Source: Ligilactobacillus faecis (GTDB taxonomy: Bacteria; Bacillota; Bacilli; Lactobacillales; Lactobacillaceae). From it: 64,000 nt of DNA. Location of the stretch: positions 1,965,501 through 2,029,500 of the forward strand of contig NZ_CP123639.1 in NCBI RefSeq assembly GCF_029889745.1. Direction: 5' to 3'. Made by a program: the position numbers and the translations under genes. Below are positions 10,031 to 49,879 of this stretch, piece after piece; position 1 is the stretch's first letter, and the number at the start of each line of letters is the position of its first letter. The notes beneath the pieces are model-generated. The model was not told where the DNA came from. It searched no databases and saw nothing but the letters and a program-made list of their open reading frames with translations.

Positions 10031-11233
10031 CTACCTCAGATTTTTAGCACGTGTAAGTAACGCCTCTTTTTGATTGGATATCTCACCTAAGACAACTTCG
10101 CGCTCAAGGATGTTTAAGATCTTGCCTAAAAGAGGTCCAGGAGTCAGCTTGGCTTCTTTGATCAAGAGTTTACCGTTGACAGCTAATTGACTCTTATCTT
10201 TGATCGCAAGTTGCGCATAAGCTTGCATAAAATCGGCTGCATCAAAAGCAGGAAAAGCCAGTAAAGTAGCAAGCTGGGCTACAGCACTAACTGCTTCACT
10301 TTTAGCTTGATAACAAGCCCAAATATCTTTTTTGCCAGTTGAATAGATCTGGAGTAAATTTAAGATATGTTGTGCTTGAGCAATGATCTCATTTGAAGTT
10401 TTCCAAGCTTTTAGTAATTTTCTGAGTTGTTTTTCATTTAATTTGAAACTATAACCTAAAAGCCCCCAACATTGAGCCTCTGTCGTCAGCTCGAGTTCAA
10501 GTTTGCTCAAGTCTGCCAAAGCTTGGGCATGTGGGGCAAAACCTGGACAGTATTCAAATAAACGTGTTGTGACAAAAGCTTCTAAGCCACATTTGGGCTG
10601 CTTCCCTAATAAAAGCTTGATCCATTCAACATGGATCCGTTCAACCGCGATCTTTTCCAAAAGATGCGCATTTTGTTGGATCGCTTGCAATGTATTTACT
10701 TCGATCGAAAAATCTAATTGGCTTGCAAAGCGAACAGCACGCATCATACGCAAAGCATCTTCAAAAAAACGTTCTTTTGCATCACCGACAGCTTTGATCC
10801 TTTTAGCTTTGAGATCTTCTAAGCCACCAAACAGATCGATGATCTGACCATCTGGCGCTAATGCAAGTGCATTGATCGTCAGATCACGCCGTTTGAGATC
10901 TTCTGCTAATGAGCGTACAAATTCGACTTTATCTGGGCGTCTGAAATCTTGATATCCACTCTCAGTTCGAAAAGTTGTGATCTCATAACCAATACCATGA
11001 TCCAAGACCATAACTGTCCCATGTTCGATCCCAGTATCAACTGTTTTGCTGAAGATCTGCTTGATCTCTTCTGGATATGCGCTTGTGGCAATATCGATAT
11101 CATGGATCGGCAGACCTAACAGTGTATCGCGAACACATCCACCGACAAAATAAGCTTCAAAGCCAGCTTGCCGGATCTGTTTTAAGATCGGGAGGGCTTC
11201 TTCAAATTCAACTGGAAGTTTTTTGATTTGCAT
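10031..11233 (-). CDS. cca: CCA-adding tRNA nucleotidyltransferase
   Basis: 400 residues from the ATG at 11233. The nucleotidyltransferase head has FVGGCVRD and the metal-binding DIDIATS, then RRDLTINALA and the EDALRMMRAVRFASQL neck. This is a class II enzyme that builds the 3' CCA of tRNAs. The frame is open to an ATG at 11278, but that codon has no ribosome site. The chosen ATG has AGAAGGG, though at a long 14-nt spacing, so the start is not certain. It lies between yitT and the ABC-F gene on the same strand. Confidence 0.93.
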   Translation of the reverse strand: MQIKKLPVEFEEALPILKQIRQAGFEAYFVGGCVRDTLLGLPIHDIDIATSAYPEEIKQIFSKTVDTGIEHGTVMVLDHGIGYEITTFRTESGYQDFRRPDKVEFVRSLAEDLKRRDLTINALALAPDGQIIDLFGGLEDLKAKRIKAVGDAKERFFEDALRMMRAVRFASQLDFSIEVNTLQAIQQNAHLLEKIAVERIHVEWIKLLLGKQPKCGLEAFVTTRLFEYCPGFAPHAQALADLSKLELELTTEAQCWGLLGYSFKLNEKQLRKLLKAWKTSNEIIAQAQHILNLLQIYSTGKKDIWACYQAKSEAVSAVAQLATLLAFPAFDAADFMQAYAQLAIKDKSQLAVNGKLLIKEAKLTPGPLLGKILNILEREVVLGEISNQKEALLTRAKNLR

Positions 11234-21200: not shown

Positions 21201-24200
21201 TCACTGTATACGTCAATACTTGTTGATTTGTGTTGTAGTAGACTGTCACTTCGCTGTTTTGACTAGCTGAGGTGACTGTTTGGGCTTCGACCACAGCTTT
21301 ATCAGCTGTATAACCAGCGATCGTTGGACTTGTCACCGCCACAAACGTATCTGTAGCTGGATTCCAGACCGGATCACCAACGTTTTGTTTAGTCACTTGA
21401 TCTACTTTATAGGTTGGCACAAACGTCTTTGTCTCAGTTACGCTATCAGCTGCTCTTCGACCTGTTTTTGGTCCGTTACTGTAAACGTAGTTGACTACTC
21501 TTGTGACATTCACTGGTGTGCCTTCTACATCTCTTAACGTATGCGTCAAGTAGACATAGTAGTTTTGATCGACGCTTGGATCAGCATCAAAAGTCCCAGC
21601 ACTTGCTTCTGGTTGTGCTTCTGCAAGCTCATAACCAGCTTGTCCGTAGTTCCACAACGTATTGGTGTAACTTTGGTCTGCTTCACCTGTCAATGTTTGT
21701 AGTTGAGCTGTTAACTCAGTCCCTGAGGTCGGGGTGTAACCTGTACCTTTTTCGACTCCGTAAACGTCCACATAGTGCACTTTTACTGTTTGAGTCCCAG
21801 CAGTATACGTTACGACATCATTTAAGTCAGTCGATTCATGCGTCAAGCTTTGACTGCCAACACTTGTCTTGTCAGCGACATAGCCTGCAATTGTTGGGCT
21901 CGTTACTTCTAGTGTTGTTTGTGGCTCGCTCCAAACAGTAGTCAGCACTGCTTTCGTTACTGCATCTAACGTATTTCTTGAGGTGAAGACGTAGTCTTTT
22001 TCATACGTTCTGGCAGCTTCTTCACCTTGTTTTGGTCCATTGCCATAGACATATCTGATCGTTTGTTTGATCGTCTTCGTCTCGCCGTTTTCTTCTAAAC
22101 GACCATGGTTTAAGTGGATCACTACATTTTGATCAACATCATCATTGTCATCAAATGTTGCTGGTAAGCTATCTTGACTCACTAACACATAGCCCTGATC
22201 AACGTAACCATTGATGATCCGTTGGTAATCTTGGAGAACACTTGCGCCGATCACACTTGAGCTGTCTCCAACTGCCAATCTCACTTCGTTTTCTAAGACT
22301 CTACCATTATCACCATCATCGATTACTGTATACGTCAATACTTGTTCATTTGCGCTGTAGTAGACTGTCACTTCGCTATTTTGACTAGCTGAGGTGACTG
22401 TTTGGGCTTCGACCACAGCTTTATCAGCTGTATAACCAGCGATCGTTGGACTTGTCACTGCTACAAACGTATCTGTGGCTGGATTCCAGACTGGATTGCC
22501 AACATTTTGTTTAGTCACTTGATCTACTTTATAAGTTGGCACAAACGTCTTCGTCTCAGTCACGCTATCAGCTACTCTTTGACCTGCTTTTGGTCCGTTA
22601 CTGTAAACGTAGTTGACTACTCTTGTGACGTTTACTGGTGTGCCTTCTACGTCTCTTAACGCATGCGTCAAGTAAACATAGTAGTTTTGATCGACACTTG
22701 GATCAGCATCAAAAGTCCCAGCACTTGCTTCTGGCTGTGCTTCTGCAAGCTCATAACCAGCTTGTCCGTAGTTCCACAACGTATTGGTGTAACTTTGGTC
22801 TGCTTCACCTGTCAATGTTTGTAGTTGAGCTGTCAACTCAGTCCCTGACGTTGGGGTGTAACCTGTGCCTTTTTCGACTCCGTAAACGTCCACATAGTGC
22901 ACTTTTACTGTTTGAGTCCCAGCAGTATACGTTACGACATCATTTAAGTCAGTCGACTCATGCGTCAAGCTTTGACTGCCGACACTTGTCTTATCAGCGA
23001 CATAGCCTGCAATTGTTGGGCTCGTTACTTCTAGTGTTGTTTGTGGCTCGCTCCAAACAGTAGTCAGCACTGCTTTCGTTACTGCATCTAACGTATTTCT
23101 TGAAGTAAAGACGTAGTCTTTTGTATACGTTCTAGCAGCTTCTTCACCTTGTTTTGGTCCATTGCCATAGACATAACTGATCGTTTGTTTGATCGTCTTC
23201 GTCTCGCCGTTTTCTTCTAAACGACCATGGTTTAAGTGGATCACTACATTTTGATCAACATCATCATTGTCATCAAATGTTGCTGGTAAGCTATCTTGAC
23301 TCACTAAAACATAGCCTTGATCAACATAACCATTGATGATCCGTTGGTAATCTTGCAGAACACTTGCGCCGATCACACTTGAGCTATCTCCAACTGCTAA
23401 TCTCACTTCGTTTTCTAAGATCTTACCATTATCACCATCATCGATCACTGTATAAGTCAATACTTGTTGATTTGCGCTGTAGTAAACTGTCACTTCGCTG
23501 TTTTGACTAGCTGAGGTGACTGTTTGAGCTTCGACCACAGCTTTATCAGCTGTATAACCAGCGATCGTTGGGCTTGTCACCGCCACAAACGTATCTGTGG
23601 CTGGATTCCAGACTGGATCACCAACATTTTGTTTAGTAACTTGATCTACTTTATAAGTTGGTACAAACGTCTTCGTCTCAGTCACGCTATCAGCTGCTCT
23701 TTGTCCCGCTTTTGGTCCGTTACTGTAAACGTAGTTGACTACTCTTGTGACGTTTACTGGCGTACCTTCTACATCTCTTAACGTATGTGTCAAGTAGACA
23801 TAGTAGTTTTGATCGACACTTGGATCAGCATCAAAAGTCCCAGCGCTTGCTTCTGGCTGTGCTTCTGCAAGCTCATAACCAGCTTGTTCGTAGTTCCACA
23901 ACGTATTGGTGTAACTTTGGTCTGCTTCACCTGTCAATGTTTGTAGTTGAGCTGTCAACTCAGTCCCTGAAGTCGGTGTATAACCTGTACCTTTTTCGAC
24001 TCCGTAAACGTCCACATAGTGCACTTTTACTGTTTGAGTCCCAGCAGTATACGTTACGACATCATTTAAGTCAGTAGATTCATGCGTCAAGCTTTGACTG
24101 CCAACACTTGTCTTATCAGCAACATAGCCTGTAATTGTTGGACTCGTCACTTCTGATGTTGTTTGAGCAGCACTCCAAATCGTATCGATAACAGCCTTAG

Positions 24201-27200
24201 TTACTGCATCTAACGTATTTCTTGAGGTGAAGACGTAGTCTTTTTCATACGTTCTGGCAGCTTCTTCACCTTGTTTTGGTCCATTGCCATAGACATATCT
24301 GATCGTTTGTTTGATCGTCTTCGTCTCGCCGTTTTCTTCTAAACGACCATGGCTAAGGTGGATCACCACCAACTGATCTACAGATGAATCTGAATCATAT
24401 TTATCTGGGATCTCAGACATACTTTCAATAATATATCCCTGTTTTTTATAATCATCGGCGATCTTTTGGTAGCGTTGATAGATACTTAACGGAACATCTG
24501 ATTCTGATTCACCTGTCCCAAGCAATGTTACTGGAACAAGCTCTTTGTTTTCAGTATCATCTATCACTTGATAATTGAGCACTTGTTGCTCAGGAGCATA
24601 GTAAACGGTAAAGCTCAGATCACTTTCTGGCGTTTCATGTGTTACATTGATACTTTCGATCTTTGCTTTGTCTGGTGTATAGCCTGAGACAGTCGGACTT
24701 TGAACTTCAACAAATGTTTGAGGACTGCTCCAAACTGTATTGATAACTTCCTTAGTTACTTTATCGATCGTATCGACAGAAGTGAACGTTATTGGTTGTG
24801 AAGTGTACATTGGCGCTGCAACGTCACCTTTATGGATCCCACTAGCATATAAATAATTGATCTTTTCTGTTAATGTTACTGAAGATCCTGCCTTATCCTC
24901 TGTATCATGCCGTAAATGGACCACTAATGTTTGATCGACTGTTGGATCATTATCATAGTTATCAGGCACTGGATCTTGGCTGACTACAACATACCCAGCA
25001 GCTTTATAACGTTCGATAATATTTTCATAATCACTCTTAGTCGAAGCACTGACTTCTGAATTTGATAAACCATTTCCAAGCTCTTGCTTGTCTACTAATG
25101 TAACTGGTGTATATCCCGCATCAGTTTTAGTGCCTTGATCATCGATAACAGTCACACGTAAAGTTTGGAGATCTTCAACATATTTGATCTCATACACTTG
25201 AATATCTGTATCAGTATTACCAGTATTTTCAGTGTTATCAAAAGTCAATTTAGCTGCCAAAGCCGCATCTAAACTGCTATATTCTTTTCCGTCTGGCGCA
25301 GTGACTGTATAGCGATAATTTTGACGTCTAAACGCCAAAGATCCATTTGCTAACGTAGTTGCATCTGAAAGAACAGGCCTTCCATCTGCACCATAAAACA
25401 TCGTTCCCCCAGATACCCCGTCATTATAGAAAGGACTGATATTTTCTGCTTCAGCTACAGTTGCTGGGATCTCATTTACAGGATCATTTTGGCTGATGAT
25501 CACAGCCTTTTGGAAATCACCAACATAATTAACGATAAAGTTTTGCGTTGCCCCAGAGATATCACTGGTACTATCAAATGTCCCTTGAGCTGCTAAAGCC
25601 TCAGCTAAAGTACCATATTCACTACGTCCATCTTTATCTGTCAGTAGTTTACCCGTACGATCGACTACTGTGATCGTATAGTGATAACCTTTACGAGCTA
25701 ATTGCGCATCTGTCACACTAAAGCTGATAGCGCTGACCCCTGTAGGATCTTCTTGGAAGTTACTTCCAGTATTTGCTTGCGGATCACCAGTCGCAGTCGC
25801 CAACTCAGTCCCTCTAAGCGATCCTTCAAGCAAACGTGCCTTATCAACTTGATAGATCCTTGTCACTACAGTAGAACCATCTGCTTGTAAAAGATTACTT
25901 GGCGAGAATGTATCTCGCGTGAATTTATATCCAGTGATAGTTTCAGAAGGATCAAGCACTAAAGCTTTCCCAGTTTCACCAAAGAGATCACCATTTGTAA
26001 CGGTGTACTCGCCAGTATCTGGATCTAAAACAGCTTTACCTTGTACATCTTTGTAACCATTGATCTGATTTCCATCTTGATCAACGATCTTCAAAGTCGC
26101 ATAAGTCGCATAAGTATCAGTAACTTCCCCCCTAACTAAAGATAACTGATTTTCATACCCTCCGACTTGTCGTAAGGTAACCTTCTTCGACATATTATCC
26201 TCACTTGTCGGTGAATATGCGTTAAATTGATAAACGATCTTGTTACTTGCACTCAATGCTGGCACATATAATACTAATGATTTGATCGTTGACCAATCAG
26301 TTACTTGGTCTGCAGTCTTTAATTGACTTGGGAGCGCTTGACCACGCGACCATGTCGATCCATCCTCAAAGGTTAACGTTGTACCGTCTGAACTCAGTGT
26401 AGCTAACTGCGTCGAATAATACATTGTATGTGCGTCATTGACATAGTTATTGGTTGGATCAATTGCCAATGACCCTGGTCCACTAACATTTAGCGTAAAA
26501 TCTTGGGTCGCATTAGGATTATTGCCATCAACTACTCCAGCTTGTGGCAAATTCATAACTGAAATAACGCCTTTTAATGGATCAGACGTATTATTGACCA
26601 TTCCCAATTGAAGAGTTTGAAGACCGATTTTATCCCCGTTAACATCAACATGATCTTGAGTCGGATAATTCAAACCATTAGATGATGAAACAAAATCGAC
26701 CGTTCCTTTGATCAAAGGAGTCGCTTTAACTTCAAGAGGAGCAACAATACGCAAATAGCTATTATTATTCCCAGACTCTACCATCATAGTATCGACACTT
26801 GTACCATCATTAAACTCGATCTTTGCCTTATTCGAACTAGGTATGGTCGAATTACTGAAGTCACCGCCCACTTGAACCCAACTAGTATTACTGTCACTAT
26901 TGACATTAGGAGCATAAGCACGCAACCCTTCAGTTGAGACTCCCATCGCCTGTAGTTGTGCTGCAGTATATAGATCTAAAGTTTTATTATTTGCTTTATC
27001 TTCATAGGCATATAACGTTTCAAGTGTCCTAGCAGTATCAAATCCATTCACCGCATCACTGCGGACCCTAAACGCTAAAGATATCGAAGTACGTGGTTCC
27101 ATCTCGTATCCTGTCCCAGTCCAATCAAGTACGACAACACTTTGACCACTTGTATTATACTTCCTAGATACTTTCGGACTCGGTACACTTTCAAAATCAT

Positions 27201-30200
27201 CACCAGAAATAGTGTAAATAGTCCCTGTCGCAGGATCTCTCACTATATCCATTTGGTCAGGAACAGTAAAATATACGATCGGATCTTTAACTACACCATG
27301 TTTTATCGGCAATGGTCCTCCACCTGAATCAGTAGGTGTCGAATTAGCCTTATCTTCCAAGATCCCGCCCGCATCAAGGTTCACTCTGTTTATTAAGTAA
27401 CTGCTAACTCCATCTACTTTAAGAGCTATATAATATACCTCACCAGCACTAAGAGCCTGTTGATTATTTCCATATCCTTGTGAGCGTGGCCAGTTATTTA
27501 TAGAAAACGGAAGCTTTGTTTCCTCTAATCTTGTGATCGCAACCTCTACAGGAACTTCTTTATGTTCACTTTCAACGACTATATTCGAAACATACTCTTC
27601 CCCATATTGAGCACTAGTATTTAAATACCCTAACACACTGATATATCCCGTTGAAATATCATTTAACCCAACAAAGTTGTTTGACGCTTGAATACCATCA
27701 GCGTAATAAGGAACATCTGGGGTGACATCATAACCTGAAATTTTCACACCTTCAGGCAACTTCTCGCCATTACTAAATTTTCCAAAATGGTCTATAAGCC
27801 CAGTAATTGGATTATAGCTTTCACCTGCTTGTAAGCGTTGGGTGATTTTATGAGTGACCTCTTCTCCGCCTTCAGTAACTTTTCCAGTAACAACAACAGT
27901 ATATCCAGTTTGTGCTGGATTATATGATCCAAAATCAGAATAATCGCCACTTACGTTATTTAGTGGCATTACGATCCCATTCGTTGTAATTTCAGATGGA
28001 AAGTCAAAATGATAGGTAGGTTTAAATTTAGTCAAACCATTTCCAATGACACCAACCGTATAAAGCACTGGCGCTGCAGGATATCCATTTTCTAGGGCCA
28101 CTAATTTTCTTGCTGTACTTTTAGATGGAACAACTTTTACATTCGGCAATTTAACAGAATCATAGTTTGACACAGCCGTCCTAACAGTATTTGACTTTTG
28201 GTCATCTTTACTATACATTACAGAAACGTAAAAATTTTCATGAGCAACTGGAACAACGTTCCCATTTATTATTTTTGTATCATCTCTTGATACCACTGTC
28301 TCATTGAATGATTTTCCATCTTTTAGAGCTAGTGTAGGAGCTAAGCTTTCCCCAGTATCAATATTTATTTTTCCAAAGTAATGTTTTTTCCCGTCACCAA
28401 GATCATACCACCCTGATGGCTTATCACTTGTCCCTGTTGTTTGTGTGCTTGTGTAGCGCCCAATAAATTTAATATAGTTCAAAATACCAGGTTGCTTATC
28501 AAAGCTAAATGGAAGATCCTGAGATTCTACAATTACTGCTGTTCCTTCACCATTTGGCTGAGATATTTTTATTTGCCCGTTAATATATCGATCATTAAGC
28601 TTTGTTTTCTGAAGAAGATCTCCTGTAGCTTGTTCGTCTAGAAGAAAGTGTTCTGGGACAGGAATATTCAACTTTAGATATCCTTGAGTCGCAACCTGAT
28701 TTCCCTTATATTGCATTTGAACGACATAGACATAGTTCTCATCGGTAGTACGAGAATTTTCTGTGCTAACATTGCTATACGGGATCACAGAACAATCATC
28801 TACACTTAAGTATTTTTCCAATACTACTTTAACAGTAGTGTCAGTAGGTGCTTCCACACCATTGATCAAAAAACTGAATTTATAGCCTTGACCACTGTGA
28901 AGAATATTTGGAGTATAATTATCCGTATATGGTTTATAAGCATAATGCGCCATTCCCGATCCTTCTTCAAAAAATGCAAGAGCCGGTATAGTTTGGGTCC
29001 TATTAACAGTAACATTATCTGGCACATCATCGATCGTCCAAGTAAAGGTTCGCGCACCGTTATAGTACCCTCTTTGGGGCGATCCAGTTGGTTTCATGTA
29101 ATATGCTAAGTCTCTTCTTAATCCTTCATCTTGCCTGACAACTAGGCTAAATTTGTCTCCCTTTTTACCTGTATAAGAGATCGTCATCCCTAAGTTCCCA
29201 GCAAGGCTTAAATAACTTGAAGAAAATGTATACTCCCTAGATCCATCTTCCAATACTTTAGGAGCAGACAAAGTTCCTGTAGTGTCTCCTTGTGTTAAAG
29301 AAGTTATCCCAACTGTTCGCCCTGTTGTATCTGCTACTTGAGGTTCTGCACTTGCAGTAGTTGCTAATAGCGAAGTTTCTAGTTTGTTTGTTGATACCGA
29401 ACGGGCTGTTCTTTTCAAAGGGGCCAGCTCTTTTGCAAGCTCAAAAGAGTCAAGCTGCTCCTCCGTTCGTAAGGCGCTTACTTGACTTTGAACTTTTGCT
29501 GGTTCCCCCTCTTGTTTTTGTTCATCGGTTCCTTCTGAAGCAGGCACTTTTGTCTCAATCACGTTATTATTTCCGTTGGGACTGTCGTCTTTTTCTGTAG
29601 CTTGAACTTTATTCTCGGAAACTTGAATCCTTGAGCTTGCTTCTGCTTCTTTATCATTCTTAGCTTCCTCTACAGATTCAGCTTTTTCAGTAGGGATACT
29701 AGCTTGATCTACAACATTCTCTACCTGAGACTTTGCATCCTCTCCTTGATTTTTTGAGGCATTTTGCTCATTAGATATTTCAGTTTCTTTTTCAGTGACT
29801 TCTTCTTGTGTATCTTCTGCTTTACTTGCGTCTACACCTTGTTCAGTATCTTGTACTTGTTCTCGTAACGCTTGTGTCTCATCAGTAGCGATAGCCCCAT
29901 TTACTTCACTAGCTTGGTCTTTTTCCGCTACTGTAGACTCAACGGTCTGACTAGATGAATCAGTTTCTTTTATTTCGCTTACTTCATTGCCATTTGCCAC
30001 TGTATCTGGCTGAGAAATATCATCTTTGACATCACCTGGAATGGTCGTACTTGCTAGTGGAGTCTCGTCAGCGGAAGCTTGTTGTACGAGTGAGGCAGTA
30101 CTAAAGATCGACATCCCAGCTACGATCCACATCTTCTTCCTTTTATAAAGTTTATACCGCTTTTTTTCCTCTGTCGTATATTTAAATAACCGCGAATTTG

Positions 30201-30216
30201 CATTATATCTAAGCAT
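15211..30216 (-). CDS. Giant LPxTG cell-wall adhesin with MUB/MucBP repeats
   Basis: 5001 residues from ATG 30216 (GGGGGAG 6 nt upstream). Residues 20-34 (RYKLYKRKKMWIVAG) match the KxYKxGKxW-type signal; cleavage is likely after Ala49. About 50-290 is an acidic Ser/Thr/Glu/Gln stalk. About 295-1500 is a large non-repeated region, probably the ligand-binding head. MUB-like repeats start near 1650. Residues ~1957-3826 are five near-identical 374-residue units, each made of two MucBP/MUB-B2 pairs. Then come Pro-rich MucBP modules, LPQTG at 4963-4967, a membrane segment and a basic tail, so sortase A anchoring is expected. Such proteins bind mucus or host glycans; the actual ligand is inference. 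The frame is open throughout. It lies between IS copy 1 and a TPR gene. Confidence 0.95.
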   Translation of the reverse strand: MLRYNANSRLFKYTTEEKKRYKLYKRKKMWIVAGMSIFSTASLVQQASADETPLASTTIPGDVKDDISQPDTVANGNEVSEIKETDSSSQTVESTVAEKDQASEVNGAIATDETQALREQVQDTEQGVDASKAEDTQEEVTEKETEISNEQNASKNQGEDAKSQVENVVDQASIPTEKAESVEEAKNDKEAEASSRIQVSENKVQATEKDDSPNGNNNVIETKVPASEGTDEQKQEGEPAKVQSQVSALRTEEQLDSFELAKELAPLKRTARSVSTNKLETSLLATTASAEPQVADTTGRTVGITSLTQGDTTGTLSAPKVLEDGSREYTFSSSYLSLAGNLGMTISYTGKKGDKFSLVVRQDEGLRRDLAYYMKPTGSPQRGYYNGARTFTWTIDDVPDNVTVNRTQTIPALAFFEEGSGMAHYAYKPYTDNYTPNILHSGQGYKFSFLINGVEAPTDTTVKVVLEKYLSVDDCSVIPYSNVSTENSRTTDENYVYVVQMQYKGNQVATQGYLKLNIPVPEHFLLDEQATGDLLQKTKLNDRYINGQIKISQPNGEGTAVIVESQDLPFSFDKQPGILNYIKFIGRYTSTQTTGTSDKPSGWYDLGDGKKHYFGKINIDTGESLAPTLALKDGKSFNETVVSRDDTKIINGNVVPVAHENFYVSVMYSKDDQKSNTVRTAVSNYDSVKLPNVKVVPSKSTARKLVALENGYPAAPVLYTVGVIGNGLTKFKPTYHFDFPSEITTNGIVMPLNNVSGDYSDFGSYNPAQTGYTVVVTGKVTEGGEEVTHKITQRLQAGESYNPITGLIDHFGKFSNGEKLPEGVKISGYDVTPDVPYYADGIQASNNFVGLNDISTGYISVLGYLNTSAQYGEEYVSNIVVESEHKEVPVEVAITRLEETKLPFSINNWPRSQGYGNNQQALSAGEVYYIALKVDGVSSYLINRVNLDAGGILEDKANSTPTDSGGGPLPIKHGVVKDPIVYFTVPDQMDIVRDPATGTIYTISGDDFESVPSPKVSRKYNTSGQSVVVLDWTGTGYEMEPRTSISLAFRVRSDAVNGFDTARTLETLYAYEDKANNKTLDLYTAAQLQAMGVSTEGLRAYAPNVNSDSNTSWVQVGGDFSNSTIPSSNKAKIEFNDGTSVDTMMVESGNNNSYLRIVAPLEVKATPLIKGTVDFVSSSNGLNYPTQDHVDVNGDKIGLQTLQLGMVNNTSDPLKGVISVMNLPQAGVVDGNNPNATQDFTLNVSGPGSLAIDPTNNYVNDAHTMYYSTQLATLSSDGTTLTFEDGSTWSRGQALPSQLKTADQVTDWSTIKSLVLYVPALSASNKIVYQFNAYSPTSEDNMSKKVTLRQVGGYENQLSLVRGEVTDTYATYATLKIVDQDGNQINGYKDVQGKAVLDPDTGEYTVTNGDLFGETGKALVLDPSETITGYKFTRDTFSPSNLLQADGSTVVTRIYQVDKARLLEGSLRGTELATATGDPQANTGSNFQEDPTGVSAISFSVTDAQLARKGYHYTITVVDRTGKLLTDKDGRSEYGTLAEALAAQGTFDSTSDISGATQNFIVNYVGDFQKAVIISQNDPVNEIPATVAEAENISPFYNDGVSGGTMFYGADGRPVLSDATTLANGSLAFRRQNYRYTVTAPDGKEYSSLDAALAAKLTFDNTENTGNTDTDIQVYEIKYVEDLQTLRVTVIDDQGTKTDAGYTPVTLVDKQELGNGLSNSEVSASTKSDYENIIERYKAAGYVVVSQDPVPDNYDNDPTVDQTLVVHLRHDTEDKAGSSVTLTEKINYLYASGIHKGDVAAPMYTSQPITFTSVDTIDKVTKEVINTVWSSPQTFVEVQSPTVSGYTPDKAKIESINVTHETPESDLSFTVYYAPEQQVLNYQVIDDTENKELVPVTLLGTGESESDVPLSIYQRYQKIADDYKKQGYIIESMSEIPDKYDSDSSVDQLVVIHLSHGRLEENGETKTIKQTIRYVYGNGPKQGEEAARTYEKDYVFTSRNTLDAVTKAVIDTIWSAAQTTSEVTSPTITGYVADKTSVGSQSLTHESTDLNDVVTYTAGTQTVKVHYVDVYGVEKGTGYTPTSGTELTAQLQTLTGEADQSYTNTLWNYEQAGYELAEAQPEASAGTFDADPSVDQNYYVYLTHTLRDVEGTPVNVTRVVNYVYSNGPKAGQRAADSVTETKTFVPTYKVDQVTKQNVGDPVWNPATDTFVAVTSPTIAGYTADKAVVEAQTVTSASQNSEVTVYYSANQQVLTYTVIDDGDNGKILENEVRLAVGDSSSVIGASVLQDYQRIINGYVDQGYVLVSQDSLPATFDDNDDVDQNVVIHLNHGRLEENGETKTIKQTISYVYGNGPKQGEEAARTYTKDYVFTSRNTLDAVTKAVLTTVWSEPQTTLEVTSPTIAGYVADKTSVGSQSLTHESTDLNDVVTYTAGTQTVKVHYVDVYGVEKGTGYTPTSGTELTAQLQTLTGEADQSYTNTLWNYGQAGYELAEAQPEASAGTFDADPSVDQNYYVYLTHALRDVEGTPVNVTRVVNYVYSNGPKAGQRVADSVTETKTFVPTYKVDQVTKQNVGNPVWNPATDTFVAVTSPTIAGYTADKAVVEAQTVTSASQNSEVTVYYSANEQVLTYTVIDDGDNGRVLENEVRLAVGDSSSVIGASVLQDYQRIINGYVDQGYVLVSQDSLPATFDDNDDVDQNVVIHLNHGRLEENGETKTIKQTIRYVYGNGPKQGEEAARTYEKDYVFTSRNTLDAVTKAVLTTVWSEPQTTLEVTSPTIAGYVADKTSVGSQSLTHESTDLNDVVTYTAGTQTVKVHYVDVYGVEKGTGYTPTSGTELTAQLQTLTGEADQSYTNTLWNYGQAGYELAEAQPEASAGTFDADPSVDQNYYVYLTHTLRDVEGTPVNVTRVVNYVYSNGPKTGRRAADSVTETKTFVPTYKVDQVTKQNVGDPVWNPATDTFVAVTSPTIAGYTADKAVVEAQTVTSASQNSEVTVYYNTNQQVLTYTVIDDGDNGRVLENEVRLAVGDSSSVIGASVLQDYQQIIKGYVDKGYVLVSQDRLPATFDDNDDVDQNVVIHLNHGRLEENGETKTIKQTIRYVYGNGPKQGEEAARTYEKDYVFTSRNTLDAVTKAVLDTIWSATQITSEVTSPTVAGYVADKTSVGSQSLTHESTDLNDVVTYTAGIQTVKVHYVDVYGVEKGTGYTPTSGTELTAQLQTLTGEADQSYTNTLWNYGQAGYELAEAQPEASAGTFDTDPSVDQNYYVYLTHTLRDVEGTPVNVTRVVNYVYSNGPKAGQRAADSVTETKKFVPTYKVDQVTKQNVGDPIWNPATDTFVAVTSPTIAGYTADKAVVEGQAVTSASQNSEVTVYYSANEQVLTYTVIDDGDNGRVLENEVRLAVGASSSVIGASVLQDYQRIINGYVDQGYVLVSQDNLPATFDDNDDVDQNVVIHLNHGRLEENGETKTIKQTIRYVYGNGPKQGEEAARTYEKDYVFTSRNTLDAVTKAVLTTVWSDPQTTLEVTSPTIAGYVADKTSVGSQSLTHESTDLNDVVTYTAGIQTVKVHYVDVYGVEKGTGYTPTSGTELTAQLQTLTGEADQSYTNTLWNYGQAGYELAEAQPEASAGTFDADPSVDQNYYVYLTHTLRDVEGTPVNVTRVVNYVYSNGPKTGRRAADSVTETKTFVPTYKVDQVTKQNVGDPVWNPATDTFVAVTSPTIAGYTADKAVVEAQTVTSASQNSEVTVYYNTNQQVLTYTVIDDGDNGRVLENEVRLAVGDSSSVIGASVLQDYQQIIKGYVDKGYVLVSQDRLPATFDDNDDVDQNVVIHLKHGEKPVGPNDPHEPETPVNPNDPDPNGPKWPAKDQYRKDYTSTITYVDEQGNKVADDNVQTSTWTRTLIIDTVTGEVKNPNETWTADKSQYDAVKSPVVEGYYADKAVVNAKDTVQENLSEQVVYRPLGKIVPVDPDGNPIPDVPNPQYPNDPTDPSKTTPDQPVPNIPGMTPEVPTITPEDPGEDTKVVYNYDDQKATINYIDETTGQQLGSDSVTGRNNAKIEYTTVGKINELTNKGYVLVSDGFPTDATFDNDKNVDQIFEVILKHGEKPVGPNDPHEPETPVNPNDPDPNGPKWPTKDRYSKEYTATITYVDEQGNKVADDNVQTSTWTRTLIIDTVTGEVKNPNETWTADKSQYNAVKSPVVEGYYADKAVVNAKDTVQENLTEQVVYRPLGKVIPVDPEGNPIPNVPNPQYPNDPNDPTKGGTTPVPEIPGYQPEVPSVTPDKPGEDTPVIYVPVVEDKYSLTERFVDEEGTELSASVTKGTDYKEGTEYDVTGDAKVIAGYYLKATSDNAKGTFGKDNVTVTFTYAKLGKIVPVDPNGNPILDAPTPQYPNDPTDPSKTVPNQPVPEIPGYRPEVPTVTPDKPGEDTPVIYVPVVEDKYSLTERFVDEEGTELSASVTKGTDYKEGTEYDVTGDAKVINGYYLKATSDNAKGKFGKDNVTVTFTYAKLGKIVPVDPNGNPIPDAPTPQYPNDPTDPSKTVPDQPVPEIPGYRPEVTSVTPDKPGEDTPVIYVPVVEDKYSLTERFVDEEGNELSASVTKGTDYKEGTEYDVTGDAKVINGYYLIKTSDNAKGTFGKDNVTVTFTYAKLGKIIPVDPNGKPIPDAPTPQYPNDPTDPTKTVPDQPVPEIPGMTPEVPSVTPEDPGKDTKVVYNYDDQKATINYIDETTGQQLASDSVSGKSNAKIEYSTATKIKALTDKGYVLVSDGFPADAMFDNDKNIDQVFKVILKHGEKPVGPNDPHEPNTPINPNDPNGPKWPAKDQYSKDYTSTITYVDEQGNKVADDNVQTSTWTRTLIIDTVTGEVKNPNEAWTADKAHYEAVRSPMIKGYYADKVVVSAKETVQENLNEQVVYRSEIPTVTPNRPGEVTPKRYVPATPGTPTTTPVNNVYTPVKEAPETPVISEATETKAAELPQTGDTKDKETLLLGLGLLSGAALIGTAELGQRRKKRK
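16291..17550 (-). repeat. Three 420-bp tandem MucBP repeats near the adhesin C-terminus
   Basis: The same coding block recurs with a period of 420 bp (140 residues): landmark TTACCTAACTTAGCGTACG or a near copy at 16291, 16711 and 17131. Each unit has a KYSLTERFVDEEG-type MucBP domain and a Pro/Asn/Asp linker (PQYPNDPTDP). The MUB-B2-like YVDEQGNKVADD block recurs three times in the wider C-terminal region. Confidence 0.9.
18737..24347 (-). repeat. Five 1122-bp tandem repeats in the adhesin gene
   Basis: Five units of exactly 1122 bp (374 codons) can be phased by HGRLEENGETKT, which occurs once per unit. The units are very similar at the DNA level. Segments two units (2244 bp) apart are sometimes more alike than neighbours, for example 18750-19488 and 20994-21732. 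Confidence 0.95.
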
Positions 30217-36569: not shown

Positions 36570-36612
36570 ATTCAATTACCTGCATACGTTAACACGTATG
36601 TCCTTTCCTTCC
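36570..36612 (-). promoter_or_regulatory. der leader: Shine-Dalgarno abutting a hairpin
   Basis: GGAAGGAAAGGA (36601-36612 on the minus strand) is directly followed by the hairpin CATACG/CGTATG (36595-36600 with 36583-36588), then 13 nt to the ATG. A weaker AGGT lies in those 13 nt. Confidence 0.5.
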
Positions 36613-38634: not shown

Positions 38635-38708
38635 AACACTTTACTGTTTTTCATGAAAAAAGCGTCCTCTTCTAACGACTAGGACACTTAATAAACAGCA
38701 TACTCCTT
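38635..38708 (-). promoter_or_regulatory. cmk leader: distant Shine-Dalgarno and terminator-like hairpin
   Basis: On the minus strand: AAGGAG (38703-38708), 4 nt, an outer stem CTGTTT/AAACAG (38693-38698 with 38644-38649) enclosing a 9-bp stem AAGTGTCCT/AGGACGCTT (38681-38689 with 38660-38668) that ends in six Ts, then 9 nt to the cmk ATG. It could be the ypbE terminator, an attenuator, or a spacer that brings AAGGAG near the start. Confidence 0.55.
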
Positions 38709-39404: not shown

Positions 39405-39475
39405 CTGTCTTCCTCTCATGCTATATAGATGTGAATGAGAAAACTCATCAAAAGTCGATATAGCTTTCCTTTCCT
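39405..39475 (-). promoter_or_regulatory. ypbE leader: AGGAAAGGAAA and GCTATAT/ATATAGC hairpin
   Basis: On the minus strand AGGAAAGGAAA (39465-39475) abuts a hairpin with outer stem GCTATAT/ATATAGC (39458-39464 with 39420-39426) and inner stem ATGAG/CTCAT. An ATG (39417-39419) follows at once; the annotated ATG is 15 nt later with its own SD. Confidence 0.5.
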
Positions 39476-39814
39476 AAAATTACTTATCCAAAGTAGGCAA
39501 CGATCCAGAATTGATCTAGTCTACTTTATGGTTAATATTTTATCATTATTACTTCAAAGCTTAAAGCAATAAACTTAGTGACATTCCACATCTTTTAACT
39601 TAAAATGTCTGATGACCTATTATCGTTTGTGTCGACTACAACACTGAACGATGCTAGAAAATATCATAGCATAATTTAGCCTAAAAATACAGATTAATAA
39701 TTTTCTAGTCTTTTTGGGCAAACTATATCAAATGACACGACTCAAAAAGACACCTCACTCAATCAATAGAGTCGACCAGCCAATAAACTTTGCAACTAGA
39801 AAATGCCCTATCTA
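39476..39814. other. Intergenic region between ypbE and recQ with dispersed hairpin repeat, copy B
   Basis: No gene is seen. The segment 39697-39751 repeats copy A at 32371-32425 at about 85% identity. Its ends GTCTTTTTG and CAAAAAGAC pair, but the inner stem is weaker than in copy A. The rest is AT-rich with only small palindromes. Confidence 0.5.
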
Positions 39815-44731: not shown

Positions 44732-44778
44732 TTTAAAATTCGAAGTTGTGAGCTTTTAAAGAGTACTTCGACCTCCTC
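44732..44778 (-). promoter_or_regulatory. ribU translation leader: SD, hairpin, AUG
   Basis: On the minus strand GAGGAGG (44772-44778) directly abuts a perfect 7-bp stem TCGAAGT/ACTTCGA (44765-44771 with 44740-44746; 18-nt loop), followed by ATTTTAAA and the ATG. Looping out the hairpin gives a spacing of 8 nt. Confidence 0.7.
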
Positions 44779-44885
44779 ATTCTACATGTATTTATCTCGG
44801 ATATCCGCCTCACATTTTATCTCTTCTGGTTATCCTACTATTCATCCCTCCCATGGGTCTATCTACAAGTAGAATCTTTATATCT

Positions 44886-44929: not shown

Positions 44930-44968
44930 GATGAGGCGCTAAATAAACTCATCTAGTATAAAACCTAT

Positions 44969-45082
44969 CTTCTTCCATCCAGACTTTAACTGTCGGTACT
45001 GGAATCACACCAGTTCAGTCCTTAAAAAAGGAGTAGCGGACTTTTACCGCCGGTCGGGATTTACACCCTGCCCTGAAGATAA
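44969..45082 (-). ncRNA. FMN riboswitch (RFN element)
   Basis: The minus strand holds the conserved RFN blocks: TTCAGGGCAGGGTGTAAATC at the start, CCGACCGGCGGTAAAAGTCC, GGACTGAACTGGTGTGATTC, and GACAGTTAAAGTCTGGATGG at the end. Bound FMN should favour the downstream terminator and so lower ribU expression when flavin is plentiful. Confidence 0.95.
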
Positions 45083-45106
45083 ACCTAAAAGTAATTTTTC
45101 GGTTTC

Positions 45107-45140: not shown

Positions 45141-45872
45141 TCAGTGAGTCAAGGTCGCTAAGTCATACAGTTGTTTGACTTCATCGCGGGAAAGCTCACG
45201 ATATTGCCCTGAAACAAGTCCATCCAAATTCAAGAAGCCATATGTTTCACGTTTCAACTTCTTAACTGGATGTCCAACCGCTTGCAACATATTTTTCACT
45301 TGATGGTTACGACCTTCATGGATCGTCAATGAAACGATCGATGTTTCATTTTTTTTGTCAAAAGAGAGCACCTTAGCTTTTCCTTTAGCTCGTTTACGTC
45401 CATCTTTTAAGTCCACTCCTGTCCGTAAACGTTTCAAAGCTTCATTTTTGACGAGTCCTTTGACTTTTGCAACATAAGTCTTGTTGACTTTATAGCGAGG
45501 ATGCATCAATTTATTAGCAAGCTCGCCATCATTTGTCATCAATAAGAGCCCTGAAGTATCATAATCTAAACGTCCTACAGGATAAACTCTTTCAGCTTGG
45601 TCAGCAAAAAAATCAGTTACGACTTTGCGTCCCTTATCGTCGCTAGCTGCACTGATGACCCCTCGCGGTTTGTAGAATAGATAATATACTTTATTTTCAC
45701 GTTCAACTAAGTGACCGTTAACTTCGATCACGTCATCAGTATCGACTTTGACGCCTAATTCTTTGATGACCTGTCCGTTGACCTTGACTTTTCCAGCTAA
45801 GATCAATTTTTCACTGGCACGTCTAGAAGCCACACCAGCATTTGCCATAACTTTTTGTAATCGTTCTGCCAT
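45141..45872 (-). CDS. rluB: Ribosomal large-subunit pseudouridine synthase B
   Basis: 243 residues: an S4 RNA-binding domain (about 2-60), then the RsuA/RluB catalytic domain with GRLDYDTSGLLLMTNDG holding the catalytic Asp. It modifies 23S rRNA. It starts 38 nt after the scpB stop. AGGAAAGGA lies 26 nt before the ATG with a short hairpin between them. Confidence 0.94.
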   Translation of the reverse strand: MAERLQKVMANAGVASRRASEKLILAGKVKVNGQVIKELGVKVDTDDVIEVNGHLVERENKVYYLFYKPRGVISAASDDKGRKVVTDFFADQAERVYPVGRLDYDTSGLLLMTNDGELANKLMHPRYKVNKTYVAKVKGLVKNEALKRLRTGVDLKDGRKRAKGKAKVLSFDKKNETSIVSLTIHEGRNHQVKNMLQAVGHPVKKLKRETYGFLNLDGLVSGQYRELSRDEVKQLYDLATLTH

Positions 45873-45908
45873 TATAGATATTTGCTATATGATAGCATTC
45901 CTTTCCTT
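45873..45908 (-). promoter_or_regulatory. rluB leader: SD, short hairpin, AUG
   Basis: Minus-strand GGAAAGGA (45899-45906), 1 nt, the hairpin TGCTAT-CAT-ATAGCA (45883-45897), then 10 nt to the ATG. TGCTATCAT could also be read as an extended -10, which would leave an unusually short leader. Confidence 0.5.
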
Positions 45909-45909
45909 T

Positions 45910-46491
45910 TTATTCTTCACTTGTTAGAGCATCATTAAATAACTCCATCAGATCTGCATCATTTTCTCTTGGAGCTTCTTCTTGCTTAGGTAATTCTGGA
46001 AGTTGCGCTAAATTTTCGATCCCAAAATAATTCAAGAAGTTTTCAGTTGTTTTATACATGATCGGTCTTCCTGGAGCATCTAAGCGCCCAGCTTCAGTCA
46101 CTAGATCTAACGCTAATAGTTTTTGTAGCATCCCGCTTGATTGAACTCCTCTGATCTCATCGATCTGTAAACGTGTGACTGGTTGCCGATATGCGATGAT
46201 AGCAAGTGTCTCTAAAGCTGCTCCTGATAATTCAGTCATCGCAGGTGATTCAAAATATTGTCGGACTAAAGTAGCTAGCGCTTTTTTAGTCACGAGGCGA
46301 TAACGTTCATCAGCATGGATCAATTTTAAAGAGCTGTTATTATCTTTAGCATATTTCTCTTCAAGAAGCTTAAGTTGCTCTAAAACAGCCGGTTTCATGA
46401 TCCCAGTCAACAGTGCGATCTCTCGCACTGTGATCCCATCATTTCCACTTATAAATAATAAACTTTCGATCTTGGCTTGATTAGATAGCAT
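45910..46491 (-). CDS. scpB: Segregation and condensation protein B
   Basis: 193 residues from the ATG at 46491 ([13 protein letters not shown]). The frame is open to a TTG at 46518, but that lies inside a hairpin and has no SD. Two winged-helix domains (about 1-80 and 90-165: [18 protein letters not shown]) are typical of ScpB, the kleisin partner in the SMC-ScpA complex. An IS607 element separates it from scpA. Confidence 0.95.
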
Positions 46492-46577
46492 TGTTTCTGC
46501 TATATAAAATGTAAACAAATGTGATCAAACGTGTTGAATGATTACATTTGAGAAAGAAATATAGCTTCTCCTTTCCT
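46492..46577 (-). promoter_or_regulatory. scpB leader: SD, large hairpin, AUG
   Basis: Minus-strand AGGAAAGGAG (46568-46577), 2 nt, an outer stem GCTATAT/ATATAGC (46559-46565 with 46499-46505) over an inner stem CAAATGT/ACATTTG (46544-46550 with 46516-46522, extended by ATCA/TGAT), then AGAAACA and the ATG. The linear gap is 76 nt; without the hairpin it is 9 nt. Confidence 0.65.
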
Positions 46578-46592
46578 AAATTTTATTTACTA

Positions 46593-46690
46593 CCGTCAAC
46601 GCTAGTATTCCCATATCCTAACTAGAGGGTAATGACATTGACTAGCTCTGATAGCCTAAGGGTGTAGCCCACCCCGTTATCTTTTTAATT
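46593..46690 (-). ncRNA. Probable omega/reRNA scaffold of TnpB
   Basis: The ~95 nt after tnpB are GC-richer than the surroundings and highly structured: GGGTG/CACCC, CTAGT/ACTAG and GTCAA/TTGAC can pair, the last two as nested or pseudoknotted arms. TnpB guide RNAs come from this position, with the guide taken from DNA just outside the right end. The exact end is inferred. Confidence 0.5.
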
Positions 46691-47839
46691 TAATAAAGCT
46701 AAAAGATTAGCTACTGCATTTTCATCTCTATCCATGATCGCACCACATTCATAACAAATATACTCGTTATGCTTAGTTCTGTGCTTTTCATTACCATTGA
46801 GACCGACTTTATCTGCACCTGTCTTAACGAAGCCACACTTAGAACAACGTTGCGTGCTCGGATAGTATTTATCAGCTAAAACTACTTTTTTACCATACCA
46901 GTTGCACTTATAAGTTAATGTTTGTCTAAAGTAGCCAAACAATGAACGATGAAGCCCTTTAGAGGCAACATGTGTCATCTGCATTTTCTTGACATCTAGA
47001 TCTTCAATTACGACCTGATCGTAATTAGTCACTAACTCAGTGGTAACTTTTTGGATAATGTCATGTTGGATACTAGCCACTTTACGATAATCACGTTGTA
47101 ACTTGGCTCTCGTCTTAACATAATTACTCGTTTTATTAGCTTTTGTACCATTAACCACACGTTTTTTAGCTAATTTTCTTTGATAATACTTGATACGTTT
47201 ATAAAGTCGTTTCAAATTATCGGGCAAAGTATTGGTCTTACCGTCTGTGTAGTTTAGATGTCCGACATTGACGTCAACGGCTGAGTTCTTACCCGTCTTG
47301 ATCTTCTTTTTTATCTCGACTTCAAAAGGTAGACTAGCCCAGTATTTATCATTTTCACGGTAAATTGAAACGACTCTTAAATCACCTTCTAAAGACTTAG
47401 CCCCTTTAAATCTGATGTCGTACCAAGTTTTGACTCCAAGTGGTTTATCAAGTCTTAGCTTACCATTAACGATCTTAGCCCGATCAGTTTTAAAACCTTG
47501 TCTAGGAGCTTTCTTGGACTTAAATTTTGGTTTGCCCCAATCAGGTTGGGATCTATCAAAGAAATTTTTCCAAGCCTTACCTAGATCAGAGATCGCTAAT
47601 TGTAAACAACGAGCTGATAACAAATATTGCCAATCTTCTTTATTAGCTACTAATTCATCACGAACTTTGCGTTCACTAGGTCTAAGCAACTTGTCGTCTA
47701 AAATCAACGAGTTATCGTATATATCATTCCATAAAGCTAAACCTTGATTCCAACAGTATCTACGATAATCACACAAATCATCAATCACCTTTTTCATGGT
47801 CTTGTTTGGATAAAGCCTTACTTTTTGAACTCGAATCAT
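46685..47839 (-). CDS. tnpB: TnpB RNA-guided nuclease of the IS607 element
   Basis: 384 residues without interruption. The N-terminal OrfB helix-turn-helix-like region (RYCWNQGLALWNDIY) is followed by a RuvC core with Asp in AVDVNVGHLN, Glu in VVIEDLDVKKM and Asp in GAIMDRDENAVANL, and a zinc ribbon CSKCG/CYECG. All expected catalytic residues are present, so it may be active. TnpB proteins cut DNA guided by a right-end RNA and help keep the element in place. Confidence 0.9.
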   Translation of the reverse strand: MIRVQKVRLYPNKTMKKVIDDLCDYRRYCWNQGLALWNDIYDNSLILDDKLLRPSERKVRDELVANKEDWQYLLSARCLQLAISDLGKAWKNFFDRSQPDWGKPKFKSKKAPRQGFKTDRAKIVNGKLRLDKPLGVKTWYDIRFKGAKSLEGDLRVVSIYRENDKYWASLPFEVEIKKKIKTGKNSAVDVNVGHLNYTDGKTNTLPDNLKRLYKRIKYYQRKLAKKRVVNGTKANKTSNYVKTRAKLQRDYRKVASIQHDIIQKVTTELVTNYDQVVIEDLDVKKMQMTHVASKGLHRSLFGYFRQTLTYKCNWYGKKVVLADKYYPSTQRCSKCGFVKTGADKVGLNGNEKHRTKHNEYICYECGAIMDRDENAVANLLALLN

Positions 47840-48448
47840 TATTTTCGCCAGCTTTCAGAGACTTGTCATTTTTTAATTTACTTTTGTATTTACGTAAACC
47901 ATATGAGCGACAAGAAAATACATGTACAATGCTTATCATATCGTCGATCATTTCTTGAGTAGGACTAGTTTCAATGTTATTTAACACTACAATTTTCGTA
48001 TTGTGCATCTTACATAATCTTTCAAACCATTCATAACCAAAGCGGATAAATCTATCTTTATAGGTAATAAAGATCGCATCGACTTGATTATCCATTACTT
48101 CTTTCAGTAATTGATTCCATTTTTTACGGTTATAATCAAGCCCGCTGCCAATATCAGTAAATGTTTCATCAAGAATAATGCCTTTTGCATTAGCATATTG
48201 TCTAATAAAAGCAATTTGATTTTTTAAATTATCTTTCTGCCCATATGTTGAGACTCTAGCATAAGCAACATTCTTACGATCATTACTGGTTGATCGACCG
48301 ATGTATTTTAAGTATTGTTCTTCTGTATATATCTTCGATTAGTGGAAGTACGATAAGCTTTTAAAATCCCATTATTATCCCAGCGTTGGAGGGTCAGAAC
48401 AGTAACGCCCAATCTTTCAGCCATTTCTTTTGGTTTTAATATCGCCAT
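47781..48448 (-). pseudogene. tnpA: Frameshifted IS607 serine recombinase TnpA
   Basis: The MerR-like start (MAILKPKEMAERLGVTV, ATG 48448, GAGG 8 nt upstream) breaks after TNRRYI. The next frame continues with YTEEQYLKYIGRSTSNDRK and the resolvase domain NVAYARVSTYGQKDNLKNQ, whose Ser is the nucleophile, to a normal C-terminus at 47781. One missing T in a TATTATAC-like run would explain it. The 3' end overlaps tnpB by 59 nt. The element should not move without another TnpA in the cell. Confidence 0.85.
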
Positions 48449-48516
48449 AATATCTACCTCACATTTTATCTTTATTGTAGATATTATATCGCATTTGATC
48501 ATATTTTAATTAACAG

Positions 48517-49278
48517 TTATCTCCTCCCACCTACTAATTTTATCGGTCCCAAATTTTGCTCTTGGCTAGCTTTGATATCACCTTGTTTAACTAACTCTAA
48601 TAAGGCTAAAAAAGTCGTTACGACCAGTTCTAGATCAGCATCAGCTTCAAATAATTCTTCAAAATCAAGCGGACGATCAGCTGTGCAAATAAGCGTTTTG
48701 ACACGTTTGATCTGATCTTTTAGCAAATAACGTTCAGGTTCAACTTTACGTACACTTTTGACTTGGATACGCTTTTTTAACATTAATTTAGCAAAAGCAC
48801 GTTGCAGTTGCTCTAAATCAGCTTCATCTGGGTCTAACTGTCCTAGACGCGCATCTGGAGGTAACAAAGCCTGCTCCCGCTGATACAGCTTAGCTCGTTC
48901 ATCGGCATAGCCTCGCATATTTTCAGCAGCTTTTTGAAATGTCTGATGCAAAATAAGTTGCTGTACTAACTCATCACGTGGGTCTTCAGTCTCTGTCTCT
49001 TCTTCTGCTACAAGCCTTTCATTTGGCAAAAGCATCTTGCTTTTGATATTGACTAACATCGAGGCGATAACTAAATATTCACCCGCAATATCTAGCTGAA
49101 GCTCTTTTAATTGGTGAAGATAGGCGATATATTGTGCTGTGATCTCTGCCATCTGGATATCATAGATATCCATCTTATTTTTTTTGATCAAATGCAACAA
49201 AAGATCTAGCGGACCTTCAAAAGTAGGGAGCTTAAAAAGCAATTCAGTTGCATTTGAACTTGTCTCAGGCTTCATCAT
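48517..49278 (-). CDS. scpA: Segregation and condensation protein A
   Basis: 253 residues. The kleisin N-terminus FKLPTFEGPLDLLLHLIKK binds SMC, and the C-terminal winged helix (about 190-245) closes the ring. It works with ScpB and SMC (smc is at the end of the window) in chromosome condensation. It overlaps the ribT end by 14 nt. Confidence 0.96.
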   Translation of the reverse strand: MMKPETSSNATELLFKLPTFEGPLDLLLHLIKKNKMDIYDIQMAEITAQYIAYLHQLKELQLDIAGEYLVIASMLVNIKSKMLLPNERLVAEEETETEDPRDELVQQLILHQTFQKAAENMRGYADERAKLYQREQALLPPDARLGQLDPDEADLEQLQRAFAKLMLKKRIQVKSVRKVEPERYLLKDQIKRVKTLICTADRPLDFEELFEADADLELVVTTFLALLELVKQGDIKASQEQNLGPIKLVGGRR

Positions 49279-49624: not shown

Positions 49625-49698
49625 TTCACCTTGTCGTATCTCATGTGAGGCCATAGCTTAGACTATGACTTAGAAAGCGATAGCACCTTTCCTTTCCT
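49625..49698 (-). promoter_or_regulatory. ribT leader with AGGAAAGGAAAGG and GCTAT motif
   Basis: The minus strand has AGGAAAGGAAAGG (49686-49698) then TGCTATC and a hairpin CATAG-TCTAAG-CTATG (49663-49667 with 49652-49656). The annotated ATG is a further 27 nt downstream with its own weak SD. Confidence 0.4.
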
Positions 49699-49879
49699 AA
49701 TTTAGATAATGATCGATCTGTTAGACTCAAATACGGTCTCACATTTTATCCTTCTAAACCTTTAATTGAGTTTACTTGCTCTCGACCAACAATCTTTACT
49801 GATTATGCTAGTATAACATAATCTCGCTTAAAGTGCTTAATCGCAATAGCTCAATATACTTGGGCTACTTTGACCGCAC

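Follow-up and report, generated by a model that had tools for sequence, protein, structure and literature searches.

The window analysed here, a 64,000-nt stretch of the Ligilactobacillus faecis genome, contains several minus-strand genes in which a hairpin lies between the Shine-Dalgarno (SD) sequence and the start codon. A preliminary description had singled out four such leaders, those of scpB, ypbE, rluB and ribT, and the sequence agrees with its reading of all four on the minus strand. Pfam searches confirmed ScpA, ScpB, RluB (a pseudouridine synthase), a LysM protein (ypbE), an ECF transporter subunit and cytidylate kinase as products, and gave a weak GNAT match for the ribT product. The same strand also holds a single ORF of 5001 aa (15211-30216). 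In what follows, P2 is the hairpin between the SD and the start codon and P1 is a second hairpin farther upstream. The four leaders are as follows.

46568..46577, minus: scpB SD AGGAAAGGAG (46577-46568) of a split ribosome-binding site (RBS), read from the sequence
46499..46565, minus: scpB P2 hairpin, outer stem GCTATAT (46565-46559)/ATATAGC (46505-46499), between the SD and the ATG at 46491
39420..39475, minus: ypbE SD AGGAAAGGA (39475-39467) and P2 GCTATAT/ATATAGC (39464-39420), ATG at 39404
39580..39609, minus: ypbE candidate P1, GACATTT (TAAGTTAAAAGATGTG) GAATGTC, in which c AGATGTG pairs with c' CACATCT
45883..45907, minus: rluB SD AGGAAAGGA (45907-45899) and minimal P2 TGCTAT-CAT-ATAGCA (45897-45883), ATG at 45872
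49634..49770, minus: ribT P1 (loop TTAGAAGGATAAAATGTGAG), SD and P2 with CTCACAT, start at 49624 by homology

In the ribT leader AGGAAAGGAAAGG is followed by GTGCTATC, and homologues place the start codon at 49624 (MLYKY) rather than at the ORF start, 49654. The ypbE SD and P2 were also found in L. apodemi, L. murinus and L. animalis. The SD-ATG gap of rluB holds a full element in L. apodemi (L038, approximately 10590-10712), the minimal CTAT hairpin in L. faecis, and, in both L. murinus and L. animalis (L039/L040, approximately 10590-10630), the palindrome ACTGCAGTTGCTGCAGT, which is unrelated.

An IS607-type element with a broken tnpA and a tnpB lies between scpA and scpB, and the scpB leader proved to be its right end, a point that the preliminary description had overlooked. 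The features of the element are listed here, with approximate outer boundaries.

46497..48527, minus: IS607-type element, left end GGAGGAGATAAC, right end ...ATATAGCAG; ends common to other genomic copies
48447..48487, minus: left-end P1 hairpin, ATAATATCTAC (AATAAAGATAAAATGTGAG) GTAGATATTAT; in the sister copy L345 the left-end P1 matches the right end
47784..48448, minus: serine recombinase gene tnpA, broken frame (Pfam PF00376 and PF00239, pieces searched apart)
46685..47839, minus: TnpB (Pfam PF07282, PF01385, PF12323)
46596..46654, minus: P3, RF03014 Transposase-1 RNA (cmscan, 72.4 bits)

The two tnpA pieces correspond to a MerR-type HTH (48311-48448) and a Resolvase domain (47784-48290), so that the pairing of a serine recombinase TnpA (PF00239, PF00376) with TnpB (PF07282, PF01385) that marks IS607 elements is present. 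P3 is probably the omegaRNA core of the element. Other L. faecis copies share sequence from upstream of the SD through ...ATATAGCAG, and the insert is absent from L. apodemi, L. murinus and L. animalis, where scpB directly follows scpA. P1 lies immediately before tnpA in five L. faecis copies; in the window copy, about 40 nt separate it from the left end, and it overlaps the tnpA SD and start. Five left ends begin with GGAG and the right ends finish with CAG (once CAA, CCG or AAG), with no direct repeat seen by eye at the IS ends.

We found that these leaders belong to a large family. The pattern AGGAAAGGN{0,6}GCTAT matched the L. faecis genome 18 times, compared with 2 matches for a reversed control. 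With AAAGGA N1-6 CTATA N TATAG and two gap ranges, 23 and 33 matches fell at 53 distinct places in the same genome, versus 1 and 4 for the reversed control. The unit consists of AAAGGA, 1-6 nt, the CTATA stem and then, usually 8-15 nt further on, a start codon. A catalogue of 119 matches from four species (53 from L. faecis, 25 from L. apodemi, 22 from L. animalis and 19 from L. murinus) was built with the CTATA/TATAG pattern, so part of the stem was fixed beforehand. Removal of 13 matches that an upstream motif marked as IS right ends and of 6 others without a called gene left 100 copies. All but one of these have a downstream gene and no TnpB-like frame at most 700 nt upstream (41 in L. faecis, 23 in L. 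apodemi, 19 in L. murinus and 16 in L. animalis); L002 is the sole copy close to a TnpB. MITEs have both ends of the parent element, no transposase and recent near-identical copies; here many copies show features of both ends and 99 lack TnpB, but by eye the copies within one genome are strongly diverged. Hence the recurrent leader type proposed in the preliminary description is a real family, far commoner than its four examples, one of which is a transposon end.

A scan of sampled ORFs for this kind of spacing, chance matches included, gave 24 of 297 in L. faecis, 14 of 237 in L. apodemi, 8 of 43 in L. murinus/L. animalis and 8 of 234 in an outgroup; 13, 9, 4 and 2 of these, respectively, had no near-SD alternative. 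None of the four outgroup matches listed was of the CTATA type. The family-wide search pattern was also applied beyond the genus and set aside, as the matches listed there appeared random.

The SD and the start codon are separated by a median of 60 nt (range 23-85, n=100), which falls to a median of 13 nt once P2 is removed. The SD is therefore too distant in linear sequence, as in the split RBSs of phage T4 genes 25 and 38, and there is structure between SD and AUG: P2a by the search pattern, with covariation of the outer pairs and of P1-P2. An in-frame stop codon lies between SD and start in 64 of the 100 copies, so translation of those genes begins past that stop. ATG serves as start codon in 69 copies, TTG in 17 and GTG in 14. 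Only 4 copies have a 5-mer SD near the start, compared with 25 of 25 adk genes that lack the element. Weaker SD-like sequence is present after P2 in part of the set (a 4-mer in 17 of 100, any of AGG, GGA, GGG or GAG in 36), so some genes may use a weak near SD.

In 17 of 78 gene groups two or more species share the element, and ypbE has it in all four. It also precedes a dehydrogenase gene in L. apodemi, L. murinus and L. animalis, with an exchanged stem (GCTATATT/GATATAGC versus GCTGCATT/GGTGCAGC), as well as in L. faecis (L281). At adk it occurs in L. faecis only, the other 25 genus genomes having ordinary SDs, and the der and ECF transporter leaders are likewise confined to L. faecis among the four species compared. 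This patchy presence suggests gain, retention and trimming of copies at individual genes. Our reading of N-terminal sequences supplied the names adk, gyrA, radA, secE, rpoZ, der and dehydrogenase.

Three further leaders in the window have a structure next to the SD.

36583..36609, minus: der, SD AGGAAAGGA, short hairpin CATACGT-GTTA-ACGTATG, start at 36569
44740..44835, minus: ECF transporter gene, P1 with GATAAAATGTGAGG (44808-44821), SD AGGAGG (44777-44772), P2 TCGAAGT/ACTTCGA (44771-44740), start at 44731
38642..38708, minus: cmk, SD AAGGAG, stem TGCTGTTT/AAACAGTA enclosing a terminator-like hairpin, start at 38634

The L. faecis der insert, from SD through hairpin to ATG, reads CATACGTGTTAACGTATG, and three close relatives have a plain SD there. 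In the ECF transporter leader the order is again P1, SD, P2, with an SD and stem very unlike those of the CTATA leaders; an FMN riboswitch (44963-45084, minus, 116.6 bits) lies upstream of this gene. The cmk layout is related to the CTATA family but stands outside it, and recurs with different letters in L. apodemi and in the L. murinus/L. animalis pair. It is perhaps another split-RBS layout, with a terminator between SD and AUG.

The preliminary description had also missed the second, upstream hairpin. P1 was located by motif in 39 of the 67 copies with an inner part of at least 24 nt, a set that includes some doubtful hairpins; by eye, b', c' and a recognisable P1 are absent from most short copies. 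The P1 loop is of the type AGAAAG-N-UAAA-AUGUGAG, or b-UAAA-c. Segment b, on its 5' side, is the complement of the 5' inner strand of P2 (b', CUUUCU), and segment c, on its 3' side, that of the 3' inner strand (c', CUCACAU). Where these strands have changed, their partners have changed with them. In the adk leader (L286) c AUGUAGA matches UCUACAU, and similar compensatory pairs are AAAAUAUGG with CCAUAUUUU in L267 and AAAUGUGC with GCACAUUU in L285. Both helices match in L245 (AAAUGCGG with CCGCAUUU, GGAAG with CUUCC) and in L184 (CAAAAAG with CUUUUUG, GAUGUAA with UUACAUC). These compensatory changes argue that the P1 loop pairs with both inner strands of P2, forming a pseudoknot. The motif AAAATGTGAGG alone was discarded as a marker of P1, most of its 28 matches being copies of an unrelated IS. 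This second IS, present in many near-identical copies (L108-L111, L113, L116 and others; G000), appears to bear the motif by chance.

We compared the pairing of real partners with that of permuted ones. Over the 81 copies with an inner part of at least 18 nt, the joint score was 10.9 versus 9.39±0.17 (40 permutations) and reached 11 in 44 copies, versus 32% after permutation; here the pairing score decided which P1 was used, whether the partners were real or permuted. As this choice is loose, the test was repeated with P1 defined by motif alone, on 33 rows (the 39 less six L. animalis rows orthologous to L. murinus; doubtful-P1 rows such as L002, L298, L023 and L272 were kept). The c-c' score was then 7.37 versus 6.27±0.17 for permuted partners and the b-b' score 5.95 versus 5.22±0.15, neither being reached in 1000 permutations, and the crossed pairs scored 3.87 and 3.69. 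In an alignment with the pieces joined and the linker and top of P2 removed (A1), 81.3% of cells pair versus 76.8% after shuffling, and covariation is 0.200 versus 0.131 (0 of 500 shuffles in both cases); slid versions pair in 37-56% of cells. Pairs altered on both sides numbered 11 versus 8.1, a moderate excess reached by 32 of 500 shuffles. The stem covariation that the preliminary description had put forward as a check is thus found in the helices, and a dispersed RNA element between SD and AUG, one of its two suggestions, is strongly supported. The family, its position and its covariation are read from the letters themselves.

The two halves of the pseudoknot are also found at the ends of IS607-type elements, another connection absent from the preliminary description: in IS copies, P1 lies in the left end, and the SD with P2 in the right end. 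Beyond the four species, most of the genus matches examined proved to be IS right ends preceded by a TnpB-like C-terminus; no such C-terminus was found upstream at L214, L244, L249 and L256, and L019 gave no result. The right-end pattern matched 14 of 301 genomes, those of the genus included, with six genomes of other genera among those drawn; the G178 match was dismissed because it appears random. The left-end P1 clearly matched the right end in 3 of 14 genus IS loci (L333, L340, L345; 16 were entered and 14 scored, with L330 compared through the wrong right-end stretch), and at L339 and L341 the hairpin is P1-like but its c matches incompletely. Seven of ten loci from other genera showed the match (L386-L388, L390-L392 and L394, from three genomes), their c-c' helices being 9-13 nt long and varying in sequence from genome to genome; of the others, L389 is cut off by a contig end and L393 and L395 resemble stand-alone copies. 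Matches within a single IS include AAAATGTAGA/TCTACATTTT and TAAAATATGGAAG/TTTCCGTATTTTA. The stand-alone copy L328 retains a weak, below-threshold match to RF03014 (29.5 bits, E 0.015).

Right ends are enriched before start codons. An ORF start lies 5-16 nt beyond the IS right end in 15 of 28 genus copies (2 of 10 in L. faecis, 13 of 18 elsewhere), whereas in sampled L. faecis DNA the same rule holds for 2.6% of positions and 4.2% of GG sites. Since only 2 of the 10 L. faecis right ends lie near an ORF start, insertion is not strictly at RBSs. Among TnpB-bearing copies from other genera a start follows at 8-14 nt in 8 of 8, under a looser rule with no background of its own (three genomes, six copies coming from one). 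Like the presence of P1 and P2 at IS ends, this enrichment comes straight from sequence comparison.

We propose, with a probability of roughly three in four, that a transposon inserting in ribosome-binding sites rebuilds them by RNA folding and has left many domesticated leaders behind. In this model the leader RNA would comprise P1 (not in every copy), an optional P3, the SD and P2, directly before the start codon. The ribosome would bind the SD while P2 folds out, bringing the distant SD and AUG to a usable spacing and creating a split RBS, and the b-UAAA-c loop of P1 would join the b' and c' strands of P2 in the pseudoknot. IS607-type transposons would be the carriers of the family, with P1 at the left and P3-SD-P2 at the right. 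An element is envisaged to enter the native SD of a gene at its GG and to supply, through its right end, a replacement split RBS such that the downstream gene is still translated; in L. murinus, L. animalis, L. apodemi and L. faecis many copies would then have lost tnpA and tnpB and persisted as leaders of ordinary genes. We infer looped-out initiation, insertion into a native SD and the direction from IS to stand-alone leader; looped-out initiation is the simplest reading, as for T4 genes 25 and 38. A more elaborate version is put forward tentatively, at somewhat less than even odds: an IS607-type lineage may live in RBSs with its ends as halves of one RNA, and P1, made first from the host promoter, may dock on the anti-SD strand of the far end and so open the replacement SD, the host promoter keeping control while domesticated pseudoknot RBSs are seeded genome-wide.

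The preliminary description had also raised a regulated translation switch, which the folding model leaves as a possibility that we consider somewhat improbable. Acting in cis or in trans, b' would turn translation OFF by pairing with the SD, or leave it ON by pairing with the SD-like loop b of P1, output being set by P1 docking, temperature, a protein or an RNA. For the 67 long copies the predicted mean unpaired probability of the SD goes from 0.37 without P1 to 0.74 once b' and c' are blocked, and that of P2a formation from 0.33 to 0.87; however, blocking b' frees the SD by construction, so the SD change is partly forced. When P1 is left out, the energy model has the SD sequestered by b' in 46 of the 67, and for this reason P2 alone may repress. 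The scpB leader on its own is predicted to fold in this way, unlike that of ypbE, in which P2a forms. Against a switch, the genes appear functionally unrelated, b' is missing from short copies, and SD-b' pairing is absent where b/b' has drifted (the 35-nt copy of L184, and L286) and so is not the conserved feature. As drifted copies like L286 lose SD-b' yet keep b-b', P1-P2 pairing seems to be what selection keeps. An earlier origin, in which an IS607-type element captured an existing host leader family, would fit the large excess of stand-alone over IS copies in the four species; we think it unlikely because IS copies with the same ends occur in several members of the genus and in other genera, where few stand-alone copies were seen.

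The hairpins could instead be mere remnants of IS ends, part of an omegaRNA or recombinase sites, with translation starting from the weak SD-like runs after P2. Their occurrence at IS607-type ends, the weak RF03014 match of L328 and the runs in 36 of 100 copies agree with this, but 96 of 100 copies have no 5-mer SD near the start, and stand-alone copies keep the structure through compensatory change and at the same gene in several species, which makes the idea improbable. Least credible is the promoter alternative that the preliminary description itself had named, in which GCTATAT/TATAGC would be -10 boxes and the mRNA would begin after the hairpin. TATAG(T/C) does resemble a -10 box; however, the compensatory change to GCTGCATT/GGTGCAGC abolishes the box and preserves the stem, the pseudoknot helices covary, and some copies lie between adjacent co-oriented genes (by eye), for example after gyrB-like and rpmG-like ends. 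We therefore regard this alternative as very improbable.

Rfam scans, which covered the window and, at E<=3 or E<=1, 35 distinct loci, assigned no family to the leader, which led us to reject a known riboswitch or Rfam family as its identity. At the 35 loci, RF03014 matched L010 and, weakly, L328, a tRNA was recognised in L315, and L319 gave an SSRC10 match, below threshold, on the upstream side of the element; there were no others. A compact pseudoknot around the SD is also a feature of translational riboswitches such as preQ1-II. The leaders described here differ in that their genes appear to belong to no single pathway, their SD lies between two hairpins and they match no Rfam family. The same scans found no group I intron, and assignment of the element to the IStrons by such an intron was rejected.

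The textbook RBS is a short linear signal. One bacterial group appears to translate housekeeping genes (adk, gyrA, radA, secE, rpoZ and others) through folded, discontinuous RBSs spread by a transposon. This would be a natural experiment in how the 30S subunit reads SD and AUG across RNA structure and a new route to harmlessness for mobile DNA, and it calls for caution in the annotation of start codons.

The translation principle is already known from phage T4. In genes 25 and 38 a hairpin brings a distant SD closer to its AUG, the effective spacing falling from 27 to 11 nt and from 22 to 5 nt, respectively (PMC3014915). Our leaders resemble these split RBSs, but the T4 cases are single genes, whereas here there are about 100 dispersed copies, many with an upstream pseudoknot hairpin, carried by a transposon. 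Of a dispersed, transposon-borne pseudoknot family no account appeared among the literature matches listed (subscription journals lay mostly outside the search). IS607 targets GG without target duplication (PMC6188088). The present elements share the serine recombinase, TnpB and Transposase-1 RNA (RF03014) with TnpB-bearing members of that family; unlike the members described there, their ends hold the halves of a conserved, SD-bearing RNA pseudoknot. Group B IStrons combine IS607 with a group I intron (PMC4227781), which lies at the 5' end. Common to these IStrons and our elements are the IS607-type mobile element, probably GG targets and an RNA that would render insertion harmless; in contrast to them, no group I intron was found here, the sites are often start regions, and harm is apparently averted at initiation rather than by splicing. 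If true, this would make the leaders an initiation-level counterpart of the splicing IStrons.
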